From: Elusimicrobiota bacterium
Lineage (GTDB): Bacteria; Elusimicrobiota; Elusimicrobia; UBA1565; UBA9628
DNA length: 46,264 nucleotides
Reading direction: 5' to 3'
NCBI GenBank assembly: GCA_003151975.1
Contig: PLZD01000044.1
Span: 1-46,264 of the forward strand
The notes under the pieces are model-generated. The model saw only the letters and a program-made list of their open reading frames with translations, ran no database searches and was not told where the DNA came from. Both the position numbers and the translations under genes were made by a program. Below are positions 154 to 9,163 of the stretch, piece after piece; positions within the stretch are counted from its first letter, which is position 1, and every line of letters begins with the position of its first letter.

Positions 154-1077
154 ATGAGCGCGACGTCCGTCGTTTTCGCCTCGGCTATTGCCCTGACGGC
201 ATGTTCACTGGGCCGAGCGGCGCAGACGTCTCCCATTGGGGTGGCGGCGTCGACAGCCGCTGCGCAGGACGGCGGGCCCACGATCGAGGTCAAGGAGAAG
301 GCGGTCGTCGGGACGCAGCACTACCGCAGCAGCGAATCCAGCCTGCAGATCAACCTGCCGTACGGCTTCAGTGCGAACGGAGAATATACTTTCTACGAGT
401 CCGATCTTTCCTCCCGGGCGACGACCATCTCTGTGGGCCTCGAAAAGGATTGGGACAAGGAATATCTCGGCTTCACCTACTCCTGGACGCCTCTGGCTAA
501 CAACTATCGTTCCGAGGCCGCGACGGCTTCCGGCGGATATAATTCGCCATCCAAGAATTTCAAGACGACCATCGGCGCGACGTTCAACGCGACACACCAC
601 ACCGAGTTCGTCCCGAGCGTCGTGCCCGACGGAGATCCGCAGCCCCTCGTCCCCGTGGATGTCTGGCAGGTGACGGGGACCTTGAATTTGAAGCAGCAGA
701 TACGGGCCGCCAAACTGACGCTTGATTTCGGGAAAAGCAGCTACGACCACAAGATCGCAAGCCTGTCCGGCAATATCAGCCCCGACAGCACGCGTCTGCA
801 GGGTTTGGAGGGACTGCTGCCCGGCTTCCCGGACCTTGAATGGAAGCTCGGGCTCTATCAAAACGTGGGAAAGTGGGTCACCCTCTGGACGGTCTACGAT
901 CACATCCGGTTTCTGGAGGCGGAGCAGTCGGGGCACGGCAATGCCGATTCTTACTTGGTGGGAATCGAAGTGTTCCGATCTTCCCGGATCACCGCCGCGC
1001 TGCAGTACAACTACCTGATCGAAACGAGCGAGCCGAAGAGCACGCAATGGGGTCTGATCCTCCGGGCCAAAATCTGA
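154..1077 (+). CDS. Exported beta-barrel-like outer-membrane protein, first gene of the polysaccharide locus
   Basis: The 307-residue product has an N-terminal signal peptide (cleavage likely near residues 22-32). After it come alternating hydrophobic/polar stretches rich in Tyr, Trp, Gly and Thr, in the pattern of transmembrane beta-strands (for example the segments around YTFYESD, YLGFTYSW, VTLWTVYDHIRF and ALQYNYLIET). The start at 154 is chosen because a GGAGG lies 5 nt upstream and the signal peptide follows at once. The gene ends 34 nt before the epimerase gene. I do not recognise a named family. By position it could be the outer-membrane pore for the polymer made by the next three genes, comparable in role to the barrel part of PgaA or AlgE, but that is inference. 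It carries no TPR domain of its own. Confidence 0.65.
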   Translation: MSATSVVFASAIALTACSLGRAAQTSPIGVAASTAAAQDGGPTIEVKEKAVVGTQHYRSSESSLQINLPYGFSANGEYTFYESDLSSRATTISVGLEKDWDKEYLGFTYSWTPLANNYRSEAATASGGYNSPSKNFKTTIGATFNATHHTEFVPSVVPDGDPQPLVPVDVWQVTGTLNLKQQIRAAKLTLDFGKSSYDHKIASLSGNISPDSTRLQGLEGLLPGFPDLEWKLGLYQNVGKWVTLWTVYDHIRFLEAEQSGHGNADSYLVGIEVFRSSRITAALQYNYLIETSEPKSTQWGLILRAKI

Positions 1078-1090
1078 GGCCCGCCGATTT

Positions 1091-1098
1091 GCTAAAAT
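1091..1098 (+). promoter_or_regulatory. Extended -10 element upstream of wecB
   Basis: TGC-TAAAAT forms an extended -10 with the hexamer at 1093-1098, in the 34-nt gap before the ATG at 1112. No clear -35 is seen. It may give the epimerase operon its own start, with a leader of about 6 nt. Confidence 0.4.
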
Positions 1099-1111
1099 AG
1101 TTCCCTCCTCA

Positions 1112-2215
1112 ATGGCTCGCCCGAACGTCCTGGTCGTCGTAGGCACCCGCCCCGAGGTCGTCAAGATGGCTCCGGTCGTGGCCGCCCTCAAGGCCTGCGC
1201 GCGCCTGCGAGCCACGGTCGTCGGCACGGCCCAGCACCGCGGGCTCATGGACCAGATGCTCGAGACTTTCGGGATCAAGCTCGATTGCGACCTCGACCTC
1301 ATGCGCCGCGACCAGACCCCCGCCCAGGTGCTCTCAGGAGCCGTCGAGCGCTTGGCGCCGGTGCTGCGCCGGGAGAAGCCCGCCATGGTCCTCGTCCAGG
1401 GCGACACCACGACCGCTCTCGCGGCGAGCCTGGCGTCCTTCTATGGGCGCTTCCCCATCGGGCACGTCGAAGCCGGCCTGCGTTCTTTCGATATGGCGCG
1501 GCCGTTCCCCGAGGAAGGCAACCGCGTCCTCATCGACCGCGTGGCCGATCTCATGTTCGCTCCGACGCGCCAGAGCCGCCGGAACCTCCTCGATGAAGGC
1601 TTGCCCTCCCGCAAGATCCACGTCACGGGAAACACCGTGGTCGACGCCGTCCAATGGCTGCTCAGGCGCAAGCCGGCGGACCTGCCCCCGACGCTGGAGA
1701 GGTTCCTGGCCGGGGACGGCCCGAAGGCCCTCATGACGCTGCACCGGCGAGAGAGCTTCGGCGCTCCCGCGCGCGATGTGTTCGACGCCGTCAGGCGGCT
1801 CTTGAGCGAGTATCCTAATCTGCGCCTGGTCTACCCGGTGCACCCCAACCCCAACGTGCGCGGCCCGGCCGAAAAGTACCTGACCCATCCCCGCGTTCTG
1901 CTGACCGCGCCGATGAGCTACCCCGTCTTCATCCACACGGCCAAAGCCTGCGACCTCATCCTGAGCGATTCGGGCGGCGTGCAGGAGGAGGCCCCGAGCC
2001 TGGGGGTGCCCGTCGTCATCTTGCGCGAGGTCACCGAGCGCCCCGAGGTGCTGAGCACGGGCCTGGCGGCCCTAGCCGGCACGGACCAGGCGAAGATCCT
2101 GCGCCACGCCCGCCGGTTCCTGACCGAAGGCCGCAAGGCCCGGGTCCGCAGCCCATTCGGCGACGGCCGCTCCGGGCCGCGCATCGTCAAGCACATCCTA
2201 GACTTCCTTGATTAG
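1112..2215 (+). CDS. wecB: UDP-N-acetylglucosamine 2-epimerase (non-hydrolysing)
   Basis: The 367-residue protein is a full-length WecB/MnaA-type enzyme that interconverts UDP-GlcNAc and UDP-ManNAc in the cytoplasm. Family motifs in order are GTRPE near residue 11, QHRGLMDQM, VQGDTTT, HVEAGLRS, PFPEEGNR, HPNPN and the UDP-binding LSDSGGVQEEAPSLGVPV block followed by REVTERPE. The ATG at 1112 gives the canonical N-terminus. The gene overlaps the next one by 8 nt, so the two are probably translated in a coupled way. Its place directly before a deacetylase-like protein and a processive GT2 synthase suggests that the polymer contains, or is built from, ManNAc-type sugars rather than GlcNAc alone; this is inference. 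Confidence 0.95.
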   Translation: MARPNVLVVVGTRPEVVKMAPVVAALKACARLRATVVGTAQHRGLMDQMLETFGIKLDCDLDLMRRDQTPAQVLSGAVERLAPVLRREKPAMVLVQGDTTTALAASLASFYGRFPIGHVEAGLRSFDMARPFPEEGNRVLIDRVADLMFAPTRQSRRNLLDEGLPSRKIHVTGNTVVDAVQWLLRRKPADLPPTLERFLAGDGPKALMTLHRRESFGAPARDVFDAVRRLLSEYPNLRLVYPVHPNPNVRGPAEKYLTHPRVLLTAPMSYPVFIHTAKACDLILSDSGGVQEEAPSLGVPVVILREVTERPEVLSTGLAALAGTDQAKILRHARRFLTEGRKARVRSPFGDGRSGPRIVKHILDFLD

Positions 2216-5200
2216 AACCTTCCTGGTCGCCGCGGCGCTGGCGGCCGGCGCGGCGCAGCCCGCGCCGCAGCTGGCCAACGGGCCTACCGTGCTGATCCTC
2301 TACGACGGGCCCGAGAAGCCGTCCAATCCCGCGCGCATCGACGCGCTCTACACGGCCAACCTGCTCGGCCACTTCACCACGCGGCGCACCCTGCGCACGC
2401 TCGAAGAATACAAAGAGGGCGACTGGAAGGGCTACGACGCCGTCTTCGGCATCGTCTACCGAAAACATTACAAGGTTCCCGACGCTTTTCTGCGCGACGC
2501 GCCGCGCATAGACCGCCCGTTCTGCTGGCTGGGCAATCAGCACGGGCAGCTCGACCGCTACGGCGCGCTGCGCCGCCACGGCCTGGCTTACGTCCGCTTT
2601 TTCGAGAACGCGCCGCTCAGCCAGGTCGTCTACAAAGGCCGCACGCTCGACAAGGGCGATCCAGACACCAACATCGTTCGCATCGTCGATCCGCGCCAAG
2701 CCCGCGTGCTGGCCTGGGCCGTCGGCCGCACGCCGCTGCGGGTCCCCTACATCGTGCAGAGCGCGCACTTCTGGCTCGTGGCCGATTCGCCGTTCTCCTA
2801 CGCGAGCGAGGGAGACCGGTATCTGGCCTTTGCCGACGTTCTGCACGACATCCTGGGCATCGACCACGCCGAGAATCACCGCGCGATCCTGCGCATCGAG
2901 GACATCAACGCCCTCTCGCGTCCCGCGCAGCTCGCCGCGACCCTCGACGTGATCCGCCGCCGCAAGATTCCGTTCGCTTTCGGCTTCGTGCCGGCGTACG
3001 TCAATCCGATCGAACGGCTGTATCTGCGTCTGGCCGACAAGCCCGAGGTGGTCGCCGAGCTCCAGAAATACGTGCAGCAGGGCGGCGCGCCCATCCTGCA
3101 CGGCTACACTCACCAGCGGCGCGGCGTCTCGACCGACGACTACGAGTTCTGGGACGATTTCGCCGACCGCCCGGTGCGCGACGACTCCGACGCGTTCGTG
3201 GCCCACCGCCTCGAGCACGCTCTTCGCGAGTCGGCGCTGGCCGGCCTTTATCCGATCGCCTGGGAAACGCCGCATTACGCCGCCTCCGAGCTCGACTACC
3301 GAGTGATCCGGCGCTACTTCGACACGGTCTTCGAGCGCCGCCTCGTCGTCAACGCGCTGGGCACGGATCAGCTCTTTCCGTACCCGGTGGTCGATCTCTA
3401 CGGACAGTACGTGATCCCCGAGAATCTCTCCTACGTGCCGCTGAGCAACCCGACGCCCGACGCCATCCTCAAGGCGGCGGAAGGCGCCTGGGTCGTGCGC
3501 GACGGCTACGCCAGCTTTTTCTACCACCCCTTCCTCAAGCCCGAACTTCTAGACGCCCTGATCGACGGCATAGAGCGGCGCGGCTTCCGCTTTTTCGACG
3601 TGCGCCTTCTGCCCAACATGACGCACGGGGCCGGCGAGGTCGTCGCCACGCGCGATGGCCCCGCCGAGGTGTCCGGTGAAGGCGGCTACCTGCTCGAGCG
3701 AGTCATCGGCGCCGCCGGGGCTCCGTCGAGTCCGAAGGTCTCCAAGGTCGCCGAGTCCGGCCCGATCCGCCGCGAGATCGAGCTCTCGCCGGGGCAGACC
3801 TACGTCGCGCTGCGGCAGGATACGACGCCGCCGAGCCTGCTGAACCGCCTTGTGCGGCTGGCCAAGGGAGACTTCACCGCGCTTCAGCGGCGCTGGGAGT
3901 CGGTCCTGTCCGGCCGCATCGCGCAGGAACCGGTTCAGGCCGTGCTGCTCTGGAATCCCAAGGCGCGGGGCGAGCAGGCGACCGACCAGGAGAGCTTCCG
4001 CGCCACGCTCGACAGCGCGGGCTTCCCGGTCGAGAAGCTGGAGCTCGCGCGCCTCGCGCAGGAAGAGAACGACTTCGGGCCGTTCACTCTGCTGGTCGTG
4101 CCCTCTGCCTCCGCCAAGGCCCTATCGGAGGAGCAGACTGAACGCATCACGCGGACCGTCAAGGGCGGCATCACGCTCGTGACCGACGGAGAGAGCCCTT
4201 TGTCGCGGGCGCTCGGCGTGCGCCTGGGCGAGGCCTCGGCGGTGAACTCGCTGACGAGCCGCGTGTTCGCCAACGAGGAAGACCGCTGGGCCGACCATCC
4301 GGTCGTGCCTTGGGTAGCCCAGCCGGTGGTGGAGGACGACAGCGTTTATTACTCGGACCGCGACCTCGGCCATCCCTTGGTTATCGGCGGCCAGCTCGGC
4401 CAGGGCCGGTTCCTGTATTTCGCGCCGCTCTATGACCCGCTGACCGGGGGCGGCTACGGCCGTTTCCCAGGGCTGGCCTACCTCCTGATCAACGACTTCC
4501 ATGTGCGGCCCATGCTCAAGCGCCGCGGGGCCGACGCCTACTTCGACCCCGGCTACCGCAACAACATCAGCATCGAACGCCTGGTACCGCTCTGGCGGCG
4601 CTCGGGCATTCGGGCGGTGCACGCCGCGGCCTGGCATTTCTACGACAAATACAGCTACGACTACGCCCGGCTCATCCGGGTCGCTCACGAGAACGGCATC
4701 CTCGTCTATGCCTGGCTCGAGTGGCCGCACATCAGCGAGTACTTCTGGAATCGCCATCCCGAGTGGAGGGAGAAGACCGCGCGGCTGACCGACGCCCATC
4801 TGGACTGGCGCTTTCTGATGAACCTCCAGAACCCGCAATGTTTGACAGCTGCCCTGGACGACCTTAAGCATTTCTTGCTCGCCAACGACTGGGACGGCGT
4901 CGACGTGGCCGAGCTCACCTTTGAATCGCAGGGGCCCGAGCACCCGGAGTCGTTCACGCCGTTCTCCGCGCAGGCGCGCGCGGGCTTCCAGAAGCAGAGC
5001 GGCTTCGATCCGATCGATCTCTTCGACGCCTCCTCACCGCACCATTGGGCCAAGGACCGAGCCGGGCTGAGCGCATTCTACGACTATCGACGCTCGGAGA
5101 ACCGGCGGCTGCTCCGCGCGATCTTGGGAGCCGTCGACGAGGCGAGCCGCGGCCGGGGCCGCCCGTGGGAGACGATCGTCACATTGATCGACGTCCTCGG

Positions 5201-6167
5201 TCATCCGGAGCTGTCGGACCAACTGGGCGTGGACGGCCCCCGCACGATTGAGACCCTCAACCGTCACCAGGCCACGCTCCAGGTCGAGGACCCCGCGCGG
5301 GATTGGGCCAAACCGCCCGAGCGGTACAAGGAGTTGGGCGAGCGCTATCGCGGCCTGCGCCTGAGCCGGCCTTTCTCGATCGACATCAACGTCGTGCCCG
5401 TCCATCCCGCCGGACAAGTCGGATTCGCCGCGGCCCAGCAGACCGGCTCGGAGCTTCTGCGCCTCTGGCAAGTGGCGGCCGGGCAGACCTCGAGAGTCTG
5501 CCTCTATTCCGAGTCGAGCGTCTCCGAGCAGGACTGGGACATCCTGCCGTACGCGATGGCCGAGAAGGCCGATGTGCGCAAGGACGGCTCTGCGTGGGTC
5601 ATCCGGACGCCGTATACGGTGAGCCTGGAGCTGGACGACCGCGCCTCCAAGCACTGGCTCGACGGAAAGCCCTGGCCCTGCTCGGACAACGGCGAGGCGC
5701 TGATCCCGCCCGGCGAGCACAGGCTGACCCTGGCCGGCTCGAAGCGCACCTGGTTCGACACCAGCGAGTTGGAGACGAAGCTGCTCTCGATCTCGGGAGA
5801 GCTTCTCGGCGCGCAGCAGCAGGGACGCGGGCTCGAGGTGGAATACTCGTCCCCGGGCCGCTGCGCGATGATGTTCAGCAATGCCTTCTCCAAAATCCTG
5901 ATCGACGGGCAGCCGGCCCTTCTCCCCATGCTCCGCGGCGACAGCGGCTACGTCGTCGTGGCGCCGCCCGGACAGCACCGCTTGACCGGCATCGGCGAGG
6001 CGACCTTCGGCTACGCCGTGCGTTTGGCGAGCCTGATCCTGGCCTCCTTGATCGTGCTGTTCGGCCTGGCCTCGAGCGGCCTGCTGGCCCTTTTGTTCGT
6101 GCTGACGACGCTCAAGCGGCGCCTGCAGGCCCTGCGCCGTTGGCTGGGGAAGGCGGCCGCCCGATGA
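2208..6167 (+). CDS. Exported polysaccharide deacetylase-like (DUF2334) / glycoside-hydrolase-like fusion with C-terminal membrane anchor
   Basis: This is a 1319-residue multidomain protein. It starts at a TTG overlapping the end of wecB; no other start is in frame upstream, and a signal peptide follows directly. Residues about 225-450 look like the DUF2334 deacetylase family: a RIEDIN motif (acidic pair at 231-232) and HGYTH at 298-302, the expected metal ligands. Residues about 520-760 resemble a flavodoxin/glutamine-amidotransferase-like regulatory fold. Residues about 770-1040 resemble the TIM-barrel of PgaB-type hydrolases (AAWHFYDKYSYDYARLI, YAWLEWPH, DWDGVDVAELTFES). One hydrophobic helix near 1280-1305 and a basic tail anchor the C-terminus. 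The combination of N-deacetylase and hydrolase in one periplasmic protein recalls PgaB, but it is about twice the size. The last 4 nt overlap the synthase gene (ATGA). Confidence 0.75.
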   Translation: MIRTFLVAAALAAGAAQPAPQLANGPTVLILYDGPEKPSNPARIDALYTANLLGHFTTRRTLRTLEEYKEGDWKGYDAVFGIVYRKHYKVPDAFLRDAPRIDRPFCWLGNQHGQLDRYGALRRHGLAYVRFFENAPLSQVVYKGRTLDKGDPDTNIVRIVDPRQARVLAWAVGRTPLRVPYIVQSAHFWLVADSPFSYASEGDRYLAFADVLHDILGIDHAENHRAILRIEDINALSRPAQLAATLDVIRRRKIPFAFGFVPAYVNPIERLYLRLADKPEVVAELQKYVQQGGAPILHGYTHQRRGVSTDDYEFWDDFADRPVRDDSDAFVAHRLEHALRESALAGLYPIAWETPHYAASELDYRVIRRYFDTVFERRLVVNALGTDQLFPYPVVDLYGQYVIPENLSYVPLSNPTPDAILKAAEGAWVVRDGYASFFYHPFLKPELLDALIDGIERRGFRFFDVRLLPNMTHGAGEVVATRDGPAEVSGEGGYLLERVIGAAGAPSSPKVSKVAESGPIRREIELSPGQTYVALRQDTTPPSLLNRLVRLAKGDFTALQRRWESVLSGRIAQEPVQAVLLWNPKARGEQATDQESFRATLDSAGFPVEKLELARLAQEENDFGPFTLLVVPSASAKALSEEQTERITRTVKGGITLVTDGESPLSRALGVRLGEASAVNSLTSRVFANEEDRWADHPVVPWVAQPVVEDDSVYYSDRDLGHPLVIGGQLGQGRFLYFAPLYDPLTGGGYGRFPGLAYLLINDFHVRPMLKRRGADAYFDPGYRNNISIERLVPLWRRSGIRAVHAAAWHFYDKYSYDYARLIRVAHENGILVYAWLEWPHISEYFWNRHPEWREKTARLTDAHLDWRFLMNLQNPQCLTAALDDLKHFLLANDWDGVDVAELTFESQGPEHPESFTPFSAQARAGFQKQSGFDPIDLFDASSPHHWAKDRAGLSAFYDYRRSENRRLLRAILGAVDEASRGRGRPWETIVTLIDVLGHPELSDQLGVDGPRTIETLNRHQATLQVEDPARDWAKPPERYKELGERYRGLRLSRPFSIDINVVPVHPAGQVGFAAAQQTGSELLRLWQVAAGQTSRVCLYSESSVSEQDWDILPYAMAEKADVRKDGSAWVIRTPYTVSLELDDRASKHWLDGKPWPCSDNGEALIPPGEHRLTLAGSKRTWFDTSELETKLLSISGELLGAQQQGRGLEVEYSSPGRCAMMFSNAFSKILIDGQPALLPMLRGDSGYVVVAPPGQHRLTGIGEATFGYAVRLASLILASLIVLFGLASSGLLALLFVLTTLKRRLQALRRWLGKAAAR

Positions 6168-7432
6168 TCGCTTACGACGCCGGCCTCTTCGTCGAGCTGG
6201 TCTTCCTGTCGACCGTGGCGCTGATCTGGTCCATGCTCGTCTACCAGTTCGTGCTCACCATGGCCGGCTACCTTTACAGCCGCGACGCCGCGCGCGAGAA
6301 GCGCCGGCTCGACGCCTCGCGCCCGCGCCTGCCCGGCGTGTCCGTGCTGGTCCCGGCGCATAATGAGGAACTCGTCATCGAGCGCACGGTCGAGAAGATC
6401 CTGGCGTCCGACTACCCGAAGGACAAGCTCGAGCTCATCGTGCTCGATGACGCCTCGACCGACGCCACGGCGTCCATCCTCGACCGGCTGGCCAAGCGCG
6501 ATGCGCGCCTGCGGATCGTCCACGTGCCCGCGGCCGAGGGCGGCAAAGGAAAGGCCGCGGTGCTCAACCGGGGGCTGAAGCTGGCGCGGCACGCCCTGAT
6601 CGGCGTTTACGACGCCGACAATCAGCCGGAGCCCGAGGCCCTGCGCTACTTGGCGGCGCAATTCGAGCTCGAAGCGCCCCTCGGCGCCGCGCTAGGCAAG
6701 TTCCGCACGGTCAACCGCAACAAGAATCTGCTCACGCGCTTCATCAACATCGAGGGCCTGAGCTTCCAATGGATCGTCCAGGCCGGACGTTGGAAGCTGC
6801 TCAAGATCGCCACGCTGCCGGGGACCAACTTCATCGTGACCAGAGCCGTGCTCGACGAGGTCGGCGGCTGGGACGAGGAGGCTTTGACCGAGGACGCCGA
6901 GCTGTCGCTGCGCATCCTGGAGGCGGGGCACCTCATCAAGTTCGTGCCGTACTCGACGACCTGGGAGCAGGAGCCCGAGGACCTGAGCACGTGGTTCAAG
7001 CAGCGCACGCGCTGGGCGCGCGGCAACTTCTATCTGATGCGCAAATTCTTCTCCAGCGTGGGCAAGGCCAAGAACAAAGCGCTGGCTTTCGAGGTCTTCT
7101 ACTTCCTGGCGCTCTACTATGTGTTCCTCGCCGCGATCGTCGTCTCGGCGCTCCTGTTCGTCCTCTCGGCGACCGGACTGGTCTCGATTCCCGTGCCGGG
7201 CCCGTACCTCGAGGTTTGGCTTGCCGCCTACTGCCTTTTCGCCGCGGAGATCGTGCTCATGCTCTCGCTCGAGCCGCATGAGGACTCGCCCTCGAACATC
7301 ATCTACTGCATGGCGATGTACTTCACGTATTGCCAGCTCTGGCCGGTGGTCGTGGCCAACGCCTTCTACCTCGAGTATCTAAAGAAAGAGCGCCGCGCCT
7401 GGGTCAAGACGCGCCGTTACGCGCAGCCTTAA
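6164..7432 (+). CDS. Processive family-2 glycosyltransferase, PgaC/IcaA-like polysaccharide synthase
   Basis: The 422-residue product has an N-terminal membrane helix (about 8-35), a cytoplasmic GT-A catalytic domain and three to four C-terminal helices (about 300-400). All residues of the processive GT2 signature are present: DD at 95-96, DAD at 150-152, TED at 242-244 and QRTRW at 280-284. The ATG at 6164 overlaps the previous stop as ATGA, and is preferred to an upstream reading frame that merely shadows the preceding gene. It would polymerise a nucleotide-activated amino sugar and translocate the chain across the inner membrane. With the epimerase and PgaB-like gene it forms a synthase-dependent exopolysaccharide operon. 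Substrate assignment (GlcNAc versus ManNAc) is not possible from sequence alone. Confidence 0.85.
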   Translation: MIAYDAGLFVELVFLSTVALIWSMLVYQFVLTMAGYLYSRDAAREKRRLDASRPRLPGVSVLVPAHNEELVIERTVEKILASDYPKDKLELIVLDDASTDATASILDRLAKRDARLRIVHVPAAEGGKGKAAVLNRGLKLARHALIGVYDADNQPEPEALRYLAAQFELEAPLGAALGKFRTVNRNKNLLTRFINIEGLSFQWIVQAGRWKLLKIATLPGTNFIVTRAVLDEVGGWDEEALTEDAELSLRILEAGHLIKFVPYSTTWEQEPEDLSTWFKQRTRWARGNFYLMRKFFSSVGKAKNKALAFEVFYFLALYYVFLAAIVVSALLFVLSATGLVSIPVPGPYLEVWLAAYCLFAAEIVLMLSLEPHEDSPSNIIYCMAMYFTYCQLWPVVVANAFYLEYLKKERRAWVKTRRYAQP

Positions 7433-7524: not shown

Positions 7525-7549
7525 AGCGGGCTAGAATTTCTTACGGAGT
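7525..7549. repeat. 25-bp direct repeat, right copy
   Basis: Exact copy of bases 1-25. It overlaps the 3' end of the minus-strand TPR gene (stop at 7541-7543) and contains a TAGAAT that looks like the -10 boxes seen elsewhere in the window, though no plus-strand gene follows it. The 92-nt stretch 7433-7524 after the synthase gene holds no recognisable gene or terminator. Confidence 0.8.
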
Positions 7550-9163
7550 AGCTTTAATCTTCCCTCGGAGTAGGAGCAAGGTGGCGTCATCGGGAGAGGC
7601 TTGCAGTCCCTTTTTGAGGCTTTCCTGGGCGCCTTGGAAGTCCTTGACCGAGGCTAATATCTCTGCTTCTCGGCGATAGAAGTTCGCGGTGGCGGCGGGC
7701 CAGGACTTGAGTACGCGCTCGGCCTCCACCTTGACCGACAAGGCCTCGTGGGGCAGGGTCGGGAGCGCGTGCTGGCTCGTCTGCCGCGCGAGGTCGGCGG
7801 CTGCCTTCTGCAGGCCGGGGTCGTCTGGACAGGATCGCAGTCCCTTCTTGACGATTTCCTGCGCGCCTTCAAGATCGTTGACCGAGGTCAAGAACTTCGC
7901 CATGCGGCGGTAAACGCCGGCACGATCATCCGGCTCCGCGGCGGCGCGGGCCTGCGAGAGGGCTTCGTGGGTGCCCTTCGCGTCGCCCAGAGCAGCGCGA
8001 GCGGCGGCGAGATCGAAATAACCCTGCTCCAAAGCGGGGCGGACCTCGTAATAATATCTCCGTTCCCCCAGGCCGTTCGGCAGGCCCGCGCGGGGCAGCG
8101 CGCTCACGGCCTTGGCGACGGCCAGCGAGATGTAGTCGAGATCGTAGGCCCGCGCGAGGATGTTAGCGGCGCGCCGCTCGTCTCCCAGGCCTGACCAGAG
8201 GCGCGCCGCGATGAGGTAGGCGTCGAGCTGCTGCCAGGGCGGGGCGTCAAGCACCTCCTCTAGAAAGCCTTGGGCCGCCTCCTCGGCCTGCGCGCGCCGG
8301 CCTGCCGCCGCGTCGCGCTCGATGAGCCGGCGCATCGACTCGAGCTCGTCGTCTCCAGCGGCCTCCTCCGCGCCCGCATCGGCGGCCGAATCCGGCGCCT
8401 CCAAGGCCGCGGGATTGGTCTGGTGGATGCGGGCGAGCCCGTTCCAGGCCACGACGTCGTCCGGGTCCCATCGGACGGCGCGCCGCAGGCTCCGCGCGGC
8501 CTTCGCCGTATCTCCCAGCTCGAGCAAGCGCTGGGCGCAGAGGCGGTACGACGCGCCGCGGCGCCATACCGGCGCGCGTTCGGCCGCCCGAAGCGCTCCC
8601 GCGGCGGCCTCCTCCGCCTCCCGCTTGTCGGCCGCGGCGGCGGCCAAGGCCAACCACGCTTCTAGATCGTCAGGATCTCCCTTCAGCTCCCGGCGCAAGG
8701 CTTTTCTCGCGCCGGCGTCGTCGCCTAGTTCTTCCAGCAGGATCCCTTCGAGCCCGGCGTCCCGCGCGCCGCGCGCGTAGACCAGGGCCTCCTCGGGCCG
8801 ATCTCGAGTGAGCCGCGCCAGAGCCCGCAGCGTCGCCTGATCGCCGGGGACGAGGGCGAGCGCTTTCTTGAGCTCGATCTCGGACTCGCGGAGGTCGCCG
8901 AGGGCCGCGCGCACGCGGGCGGCCCGGCGCAAGGCCAAGGCCCGCTCGTCGGCGGAGATGCCGGGGAGCCCCGCCGCCGTCTCGGCTGAGGCCGCCGCCT
9001 GGCCGAACAGGACGTCGGCGAGCTCGTCGCGGTAGCGTGCCTGAAGACCGTCAAAGCTGACGGCGTCGCCCGAGGGGACTTGCGGCGAGGTCTGCGACCC
9101 CCCGAAGGACGCCGTCAGCGCAATGATCCCGGCGGCTAGGCGAAGGGACCTAGTGCAAAGCAA
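7541..9163 (-). CDS. Exported TPR-repeat protein
   Basis: A 540-residue protein with a signal peptide (hydrophobic residues 7-20) followed by helical repeats over most of its length. The repeats have the TPR pattern of small and aromatic residues (for example around ALVPGDQATLRALARL, GDPDDLEAWLALAAA and WDPDDVVAWNGLARI). The C-terminal third repeats a block that ends SVNDLEGAQEIVKKGLRSCP and SVKDFQGAQESLKKGLQASP. The start is a TTG at 9163, which overlaps the end of the TRAP gene by 14 nt and implies coupling. A TPR protein next to a TRAP-type binding protein recalls the TatT/TatP pair of treponemal TPR-associated TRAP transporters. It could instead serve the neighbouring polysaccharide locus as an AlgK-like periplasmic scaffold. 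Sequence does not decide between them. Confidence 0.75.
   Translation of the reverse strand: MLCTRSLRLAAGIIALTASFGGSQTSPQVPSGDAVSFDGLQARYRDELADVLFGQAAASAETAAGLPGISADERALALRRAARVRAALGDLRESEIELKKALALVPGDQATLRALARLTRDRPEEALVYARGARDAGLEGILLEELGDDAGARKALRRELKGDPDDLEAWLALAAAAADKREAEEAAAGALRAAERAPVWRRGASYRLCAQRLLELGDTAKAARSLRRAVRWDPDDVVAWNGLARIHQTNPAALEAPDSAADAGAEEAAGDDELESMRRLIERDAAAGRRAQAEEAAQGFLEEVLDAPPWQQLDAYLIAARLWSGLGDERRAANILARAYDLDYISLAVAKAVSALPRAGLPNGLGERRYYYEVRPALEQGYFDLAAARAALGDAKGTHEALSQARAAAEPDDRAGVYRRMAKFLTSVNDLEGAQEIVKKGLRSCPDDPGLQKAAADLARQTSQHALPTLPHEALSVKVEAERVLKSWPAATANFYRREAEILASVKDFQGAQESLKKGLQASPDDATLLLLRGKIKATP

Follow-up and report, generated by a model that had tools for sequence, protein, structure and literature searches.

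The start of contig C59, from an Elusimicrobiota genome of 4.64 Mb (G000), carries wecB, a gene for a giant polymer-modifying protein and a gene for a GT2 synthase in close succession, preceded by the gene of a probable outer-membrane beta-barrel protein, and this raises the question of which polymer the locus serves and which of these genes belong together. Throughout, the window is the whole stretch of DNA that was analysed (46,264 nt). A first-pass annotation, made from the DNA alone, had seen an exopolysaccharide operon headed by a barrel gene without a TPR domain, with a PgaB-like giant and a PgaC-like synthase, and had proposed a ManNAc-containing polymer and a split exporter. The answer reached here, with a probability of about 0.6, is that the genes from wecB to GT2 are a transferable cassette for a synthase-dependent, partly de-N-acetylated, ManNAc-containing exopolysaccharide.

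Table 1. Features of the locus, with positions in the window.
Feature	Position	Strand	Length and basis
Probable outer-membrane beta-barrel gene, a neighbour outside the conserved cassette	154..1077	+	307 aa
Conserved element 5' of wecB (GATTTGCTAAAAT-like and -10-like, followed by CCTCA ahead of the ATG)	1084..1111	+	
wecB, non-hydrolysing UDP-GlcNAc 2-epimerase (predicted UDP-ManNAc supply)	1112..2215	+	367 aa; TIGR00236, solved-structure matches
Giant, predicted polymer-modifying protein	2208..6167	+	1319 aa, TTG start; Pfam DUF2334, models, VIA, hydropathy
Predicted deacetylase domain, giant aa 222-473	2871..3626	+	Conserved E231, D232, H298, H302; CE4-type fold matches
Glycosidase-like TIM barrel, giant aa 772-1120	4521..5567	+	Conserved E838, D896, E902; PgaB fold match
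Predicted C-terminal transmembrane anchor, giant aa 1281-1299	6048..6104	+	Hydropathy
Processive-type GT2 synthase, PgaC-like	6164..7432	+	422 aa, ATG start at 6164; DAD, TED, QxxRW

The open reading frame coordinates agree with the tight packing first described for wecB, the 1319-residue giant and GT2, the overlaps being 8 nt (wecB/giant) and 4 nt (giant/GT2); in three Aminicenantes loci both overlaps are 4 nt. With a 12-kb query, DNA homology to all three closest relatives (85-87% identity) begins at 1079, 1083 or 1086 and ends at 7431 or 7434, so that the shared block starts about 30 nt 5' of wecB and finishes at the GT2 stop, and the remaining 1.1 kb before it and 4.6 kb after it have no DNA match in these relatives. 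Within the 28 nt that precede wecB lies an element kept in 4/4 close Elusimicrobiota loci, beyond which the upstream sequences differ, and it includes an exact TTGCTAAAATA at 1089 (expectation 0.04 when up to one mismatch is allowed). The barrel gene stops just outside the block, 34 nt upstream of wecB and on the same strand. No homologue of it was found in the four relatives that have the giant (G011, G024, G036 and G049), and its best homologues, only 25-29% identical, occur in two genomes without a giant (G019 and G023), with weaker partial matches in a few other giant-less genomes. It has no Pfam match, hence no TPR domain, as the first-pass annotation had said, and its beta-barrel nature is suggested by a weak amphipathicity signal (z 2.1) and by homologues ending in ...EVRF. 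Taken together, the limits of the block, the kept upstream element with its -10-like motif and the lack of the barrel in relatives indicate that wecB, giant and GT2 form a unit that starts independently, and that the barrel gene only adjoins it; as an operon member in Elusimicrobiota, let alone the head of the operon, the barrel was rejected.

The giant is 88% identical between genomes whose RpoB proteins share 76-81% identity (some RpoB sequences are fragments, and that of G011 was left out). Since giant identity exceeds RpoB identity, and the flanks are unrelated, horizontal transfer is indicated, and the region from about 1080 to 7432 is probably a self-contained, horizontally moving three-gene operon, as judged from these sequence comparisons. 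The triplet recurs with its gene order unchanged in both Elusimicrobiota and Aminicenantes, the proteins being 34-49% identical, which is beyond chance.

Several other features of the region were recorded. CTANAAT-like elements at window positions 1089, 11342 and 13496 each lie shortly 5' of a predicted start, which suggests that leaders in this GC-rich genome are very short. A perfect 25-nt direct repeat (AGCGGGCTAGAATTTCTTACGGAGT), of which chance would give none, is present at 1-25, where the contig begins, and at 7525-7549, just past GT2, and was not found with up to six mismatches in the three nearest loci; as it brackets the barrel gene together with the cassette, it could be a trace of recombination, a shared promoter or an effect of assembly. 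Facing GT2 on the minus strand (7541-9163) is a gene whose product has Pfam TPR matches and begins with a signal-like segment. It was dismissed as an exporter partner because it is encoded on the other strand and beyond the block, and because no homologue appears in the gene lists of three close relatives, lists that come from a simple ORF scorer, include shadow ORFs and have unreliable starts. Antiphage models gave no match for the giant or the window barrel.

From its N terminus, the giant is made up of a signal-like segment, a GATase1-like domain, a DUF2334/CE4-like domain, a second alpha/beta domain, a PgaB/GH42-like TIM barrel, beta domains and a transmembrane anchor. DUF2334 (PF10096) is its sole Pfam domain (aa 225-454, 140.5 bits against a cut-off of 26). 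AlphaFold models were made of aa 24-564 (pLDDT 82.6) and aa 560-1319 (pLDDT 84.5) for fold comparison. Residues 24-221 resemble GATase1/ThuA-like folds at Z about 14 (3rht, 4pxy), while aa 222-473 retrieve CE4-type deacetylases first in VIA (3rxz, Z 17.9, rmsd 2.4 over 209 residues). For the whole N half, Foldseek places Agd3 first (E 7e-10, TM-scores 0.36-0.42), and Agd3 is not among the best 50 VIA rows. The residues E231, D232, H298 and H302 are invariant in 10/10 N-half sequences and, by the CE4 pattern, probably form the metal site. The second alpha/beta domain (about aa 575-760) may also be GATase1-like, to go by its sequence and the secondary structure of the model.

For aa 560-1319, the top five matches in VIA are all PgaB C-terminal (GH153) domains, led by 4p7l (Z 26.6, rmsd 3.6, 319 residues aligned) and 6au1 (Z 25.5, rmsd 3.7, 317 aligned). 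GH42 enzymes come next, at Z of at most 24.6, so the margin of PgaB over GH42 is small, and PMC5933820 reports GH42 among the nearest folds of PgaB itself. E838, D896 and E902 are invariant in 14/14 C-half sequences. In a hand alignment on the DG motif, E902 falls on the PgaB catalytic aspartate, D466 in E. coli and D474 in Bordetella (the latter given as catalytic in PMC5933820), and the histidine that precedes this aspartate is Ala901 in the giant, so the chemistry of cleavage may differ. A single hydrophobic segment, 1281-1299, is followed by a basic tail; this is the C-terminal membrane anchor that had been called from the start, fitting a protein held in the inner membrane with its bulk outside, as far as the primary structure allows. 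The structure comparison proposed for the giant thus favours a PgaB-like fold, with the PgaB C-terminal domain ranking first, and the likeness does not extend to sequence profiles: the giant was discarded as a sequence homologue of PgaB or YbcH at hhalign probabilities below 1%, each against one E. coli sequence, which is a weak test. With PgaB folds ranking first for its glycosidase half and CE4 folds for its DUF2334 domain, the view of an exopolysaccharide operon with a PgaB-like bifunctional protein is supported at the level of fold.

The epimerase is readily identified, as it scores 397.4 bits with TIGR00236 (cut-off 210.15) and matches solved UDP-GlcNAc 2-epimerases at E 6e-93. The synthase is of the processive kind, with the DAD, TED and QxxRW motifs present in the alignment. 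Its naming as PgaC-like is right in that PgaC_IcaA is the closest curated family, but at 167 bits it lies below the cut-off of 422 for that family.

The spread of the cassette was followed in 57 genomes, the source genome and 56 relatives. Only five carry the full giant: G000 itself, G011, G024 and G036 (86-88% identity) and G049 (55%), and strong GT2 matches are confined to the same five. The closest named relatives with a giant are four 'Elusimicrobia' MAGs, and in a phylum sample the giant profile matches 7/294 genomes. A scan of named genomes found full-length giants in Candidatus Aminicenantes (34-35% identity), an incomplete one there at 37%, and proteins related to the C half alone in Bryobacterales, Solibacteraceae and Acidobacteriia, and in the phylum sample of one Aminicenantes genome 15/297 match, seven with a full-length giant, six with the N half only and two with the C half only. 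One Elusimicrobiota genome (G127) has a second, C-half-only paralogue (741 aa; L058 2287-4512) beside its full giant.

The neighbourhood search proposed for wecB-giant-GT2 triplets turned them up in both Elusimicrobiota and Aminicenantes. Examined were 16 distinct full-length loci and one more cut by a contig end (L048). GT2 lies directly 3' of the giant in 16/16 full-length loci, two of these as matches cut by a contig end. Leaving aside L040 and L084, which have too little upstream sequence, 10 of the 15 testable loci, in two phyla, have wecB immediately 5' of the giant and in the same orientation (G000, G011, G024, G036, L041, L042, L043, L048, L097 and L098), so that a WecB supply linked to the synthase, a feature of the Nfr/NGR type, is found in two-thirds of them. 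At L095, wecB is 2.2 kb away in opposite orientation, and none was found near the giant in G049, G084, G127 and G570. The Elusimicrobiota among these (G049, G084 and G127) each have two WecB proteins elsewhere. The operon copy is the sole WecB in G011 and G036, and G000 has a second Epimerase_2 protein that is below the WecB cut-off. WecB is also present in all three Elusimicrobiota controls that lack the triplet (G019, G028 and G035), so its presence alone means little. The first-pass annotation had made conservation of barrel and epimerase with the synthase the test of its reading, and the outcome is divided, the epimerase being kept as above and the window barrel not.

A link to the Nfr pathway came from the N half, which is also found as a separate DUF2334 protein inside NfrB-NfrA-WecB operons of genomes in a sample of the L042 phylum. 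At L104 the genes run DUF2334, NfrB, NfrA (NfrA_C 1.7e-39), GH113 protein, WecB; at L105 they run DUF2334, NfrB, NfrA, wecB, the last of them truncated where the contig ends; and at L126 and L127 they run NfrB, NfrA, WecB, DUF2334. In a phylum sample, NfrB was detected in 14/396 genomes (E 1e-80), and at these 14 loci wecB is close in ten and the N half adjacent in four. At L134 (8548-11922), NfrB and WecB form one open frame of 1125 residues with a proline/alanine-rich linker, and such a natural fusion fits a supply of UDP-ManNAc to NfrB, at least at the level of the reading frame. According to PMC8669469 and PMC8669472, the function of E. coli NfrB needs WecB, with UDP-ManNAc proposed as substrate; wecB adjoins nfrB wherever the genome has no other copy; and the N4-receptor glycan of E. 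coli is known by genetics, its sugar being postulated as ManNAc-based. A word search of PMC8669469 gave no mention of Acidobacteria.

The samples for stand-alone halves and for NfrB were drawn separately, and the association was rechecked genome by genome, with 28 genomes searched directly (those of L040 and L048 were left out). At E 1e-60, 12 of 14 genomes that have a stand-alone half contain NfrB, not counting G680, whose N half was found via NfrB, and so does one of 15 with the full giant, namely G049, which has two; G000 has none. The background for comparison, at the stricter E 1e-80, is the 14/396 given above. Despite a stand-alone half, NfrB is missing in G540 and G127, the latter belonging to both sets through its full giant and stand-alone C half. 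A plain hypergeometric value for 7/8 stand-alone-half genomes of the 297-genome sample (9e-11) ignores kinship and reads only as 'not random', and the genomes that carry the association are kin, five of them belonging to Bryobacterales, Solibacteraceae or Acidobacteriia, and so do not count as independent cases.

No exporter gene is found within the three-gene cassette. Conservation gives no support to the split exporter that had been proposed around the window barrel. Aminicenantes-type loci have another barrel-like protein, of about 232 residues, in 7/7 cases where the relevant side is present (five from named Aminicenantes), either directly before wecB (L041, L042, L043 and L048) or directly after GT2 (L040, L095 and L098). 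It was not seen in the available sequence of L097 or of L096, which ends early downstream, nor in any of eight other giant-bearing genomes, a search that had no positive control genome. A relationship between the two barrels was rejected at an hhalign probability of 0.3%. Because this small barrel, unrelated to that of the window, accompanies the operon there, an exporter built on a barrel without TPR may yet operate in Aminicenantes. In 5/5 Acidobacteriota-type loci (L044, L047, L049, L099 and L100), the stand-alone C-half gene overlaps or touches a TPR-containing, exporter-like gene; the stand-alone C half at L058 has no such neighbour in its gene list.

From the operon block, the domain folds, the conserved catalytic-type residues and the linkage with WecB and Nfr operons, all of them computed, we infer a pathway that extends to the identity and linkage of the sugar, the two activities of the giant, its topology in vivo and the route of export. 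WecB would convert UDP-GlcNAc to UDP-ManNAc, and GT2, at the inner membrane, would polymerise a ManNAc-containing chain and pass it outward. The giant, with its bulk in the periplasm and its C-terminal helix as anchor in the inner membrane, would strip N-acetyl groups from the chain by its DUF2334 domain and cut or guide it by its PgaB-like glycosidase barrel. The result would be a cationic polymer that has lost part of its N-acetyl groups and resembles the E. coli N4-receptor glycan. For a ManNAc-containing polymer speak the wecB linkage and the Nfr/NGR precedent; the PgaC-side character of GT2 and the loci without a linked wecB count against it.

The same genes could instead serve a PNAG-type poly-GlcNAc system, with WecB in a side role, regulating UDP-GlcNAc or providing ManNAc for another glycan. 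The nearest curated family of GT2 (PgaC_IcaA, 167 bits), the closeness of the glycosidase fold to PgaB and the succession of deacetylase/hydrolase and synthase, as in pgaB-pgaC, all point that way, but the PgaC_IcaA cut-off is missed by far, wecB stays in the operon in two phyla, with genes overlapping by 4-8 nt, and the N half occurs in NfrB-WecB operons, which leaves poly-GlcNAc an unlikely product. A ManNAc polymer or oligosaccharide that stays attached to the envelope (capsule-like or wall-linked), with the giant as a periplasmic editor and no dedicated exporter, would suit a cassette without an exporter, the C-terminal inner-membrane anchor and a barrel that is not conserved in Elusimicrobiota. 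The barrel gene linked in all seven testable Aminicenantes-type loci and the exporter-like TPR gene touched by the C halves of Acidobacteriota type, L058 excepted, make it distinctly improbable. Least credible is a four-gene operon in which the window barrel is the TPR-less half of a split exporter: its place 34 nt upstream on the same strand, and the analogous barrel at the head or end of the operon in Aminicenantes, are set against a block boundary past the barrel stop, the separate conserved -10-like element, the absence of the barrel in 4/4 giant-bearing relatives and two barrel families without a profile match.

In its widest form, the reading preferred here, of a cassette for a ManNAc-containing exopolysaccharide, would describe a new, horizontally transferred pathway for a mannosamine-type, de-N-acetylated polymer in uncultured Elusimicrobiota and Aminicenantes, with a fused giant taking over the tasks that separate deacetylase and glycosidase proteins have in Nfr-like systems, and a PgaC-type synthase in place of NfrB; we regard this as tentative, at somewhat less than even odds. 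If true, the E. coli NGR glycan, which depends on WecB, would represent a single branch of a large family, and the product of the cassette may be a relative of the N4-receptor glycan that lets phage N4 enter E. coli. These operons link a deacetylase-like family, DUF2334, with WecB and NfrB in several arrangements, the NfrB-WecB fused frame among them, so that the question of the substrate becomes testable with single purified proteins and DUF2334 gains a candidate job. Literature searches (on polysaccharide synthesis in Elusimicrobiota, ManNAc synthases with PgaB, Listeria Pss, and NfrB/NfrA since 2022) listed no description of the operon.

Among known systems, the PNAG operon pgaABCD resembles the cassette, by domain order and fold, in a deacetylase-type domain followed by a glycosidase-type barrel in one periplasmic protein, beside a PgaC-kind GT2. 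It differs in that the cassette adds WecB and lacks PgaA (TPR plus barrel), and in that the giant is twice as long as PgaB, with extra domains and a membrane anchor and a DUF2334 deacetylase that has no sequence match to PgaB; the GT2, too, stays below the curated level for PgaC. Agd3 (CE18), the galactosaminogalactan deacetylase of Aspergillus, is likewise a deacetylase with extra domains and the top Foldseek match of the N half, but its TM-scores are low and the best VIA matches of the giant's deacetylase domain are CE4-type enzymes. The stand-alone C-half proteins of Bryobacterales are 33-35% identical to the C half of the giant and have the same conserved acids, but are encoded by a separate gene beside a TPR-containing, exporter-like gene. 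With Nfr/NGR of E. coli (nfrB-nfrA-ybcH plus WecB) the cassette has in common a WecB-dependent GT2 pathway with a periplasmic auxiliary, and some Nfr operons of the Acidobacteriota group hold a homologue of the N half together with wecB. Unlike that system, the GT2 of the cassette (422 aa) is on the PgaC side and has no MshEN, and periplasmic functions are fused into one giant, the C half of which has no profile match to E. coli YbcH, a DUF4434 protein; the Pfam matches of the three genes of the cassette and of the barrel gene beside them include neither NfrA nor YbcH (DUF4434). By the features tested, the cassette belongs to neither Pga nor Nfr, and the simplest account is that its polymer is deacetylated and trimmed in the periplasm as in Pga, and that the choice of sugar, ManNAc, follows Nfr.
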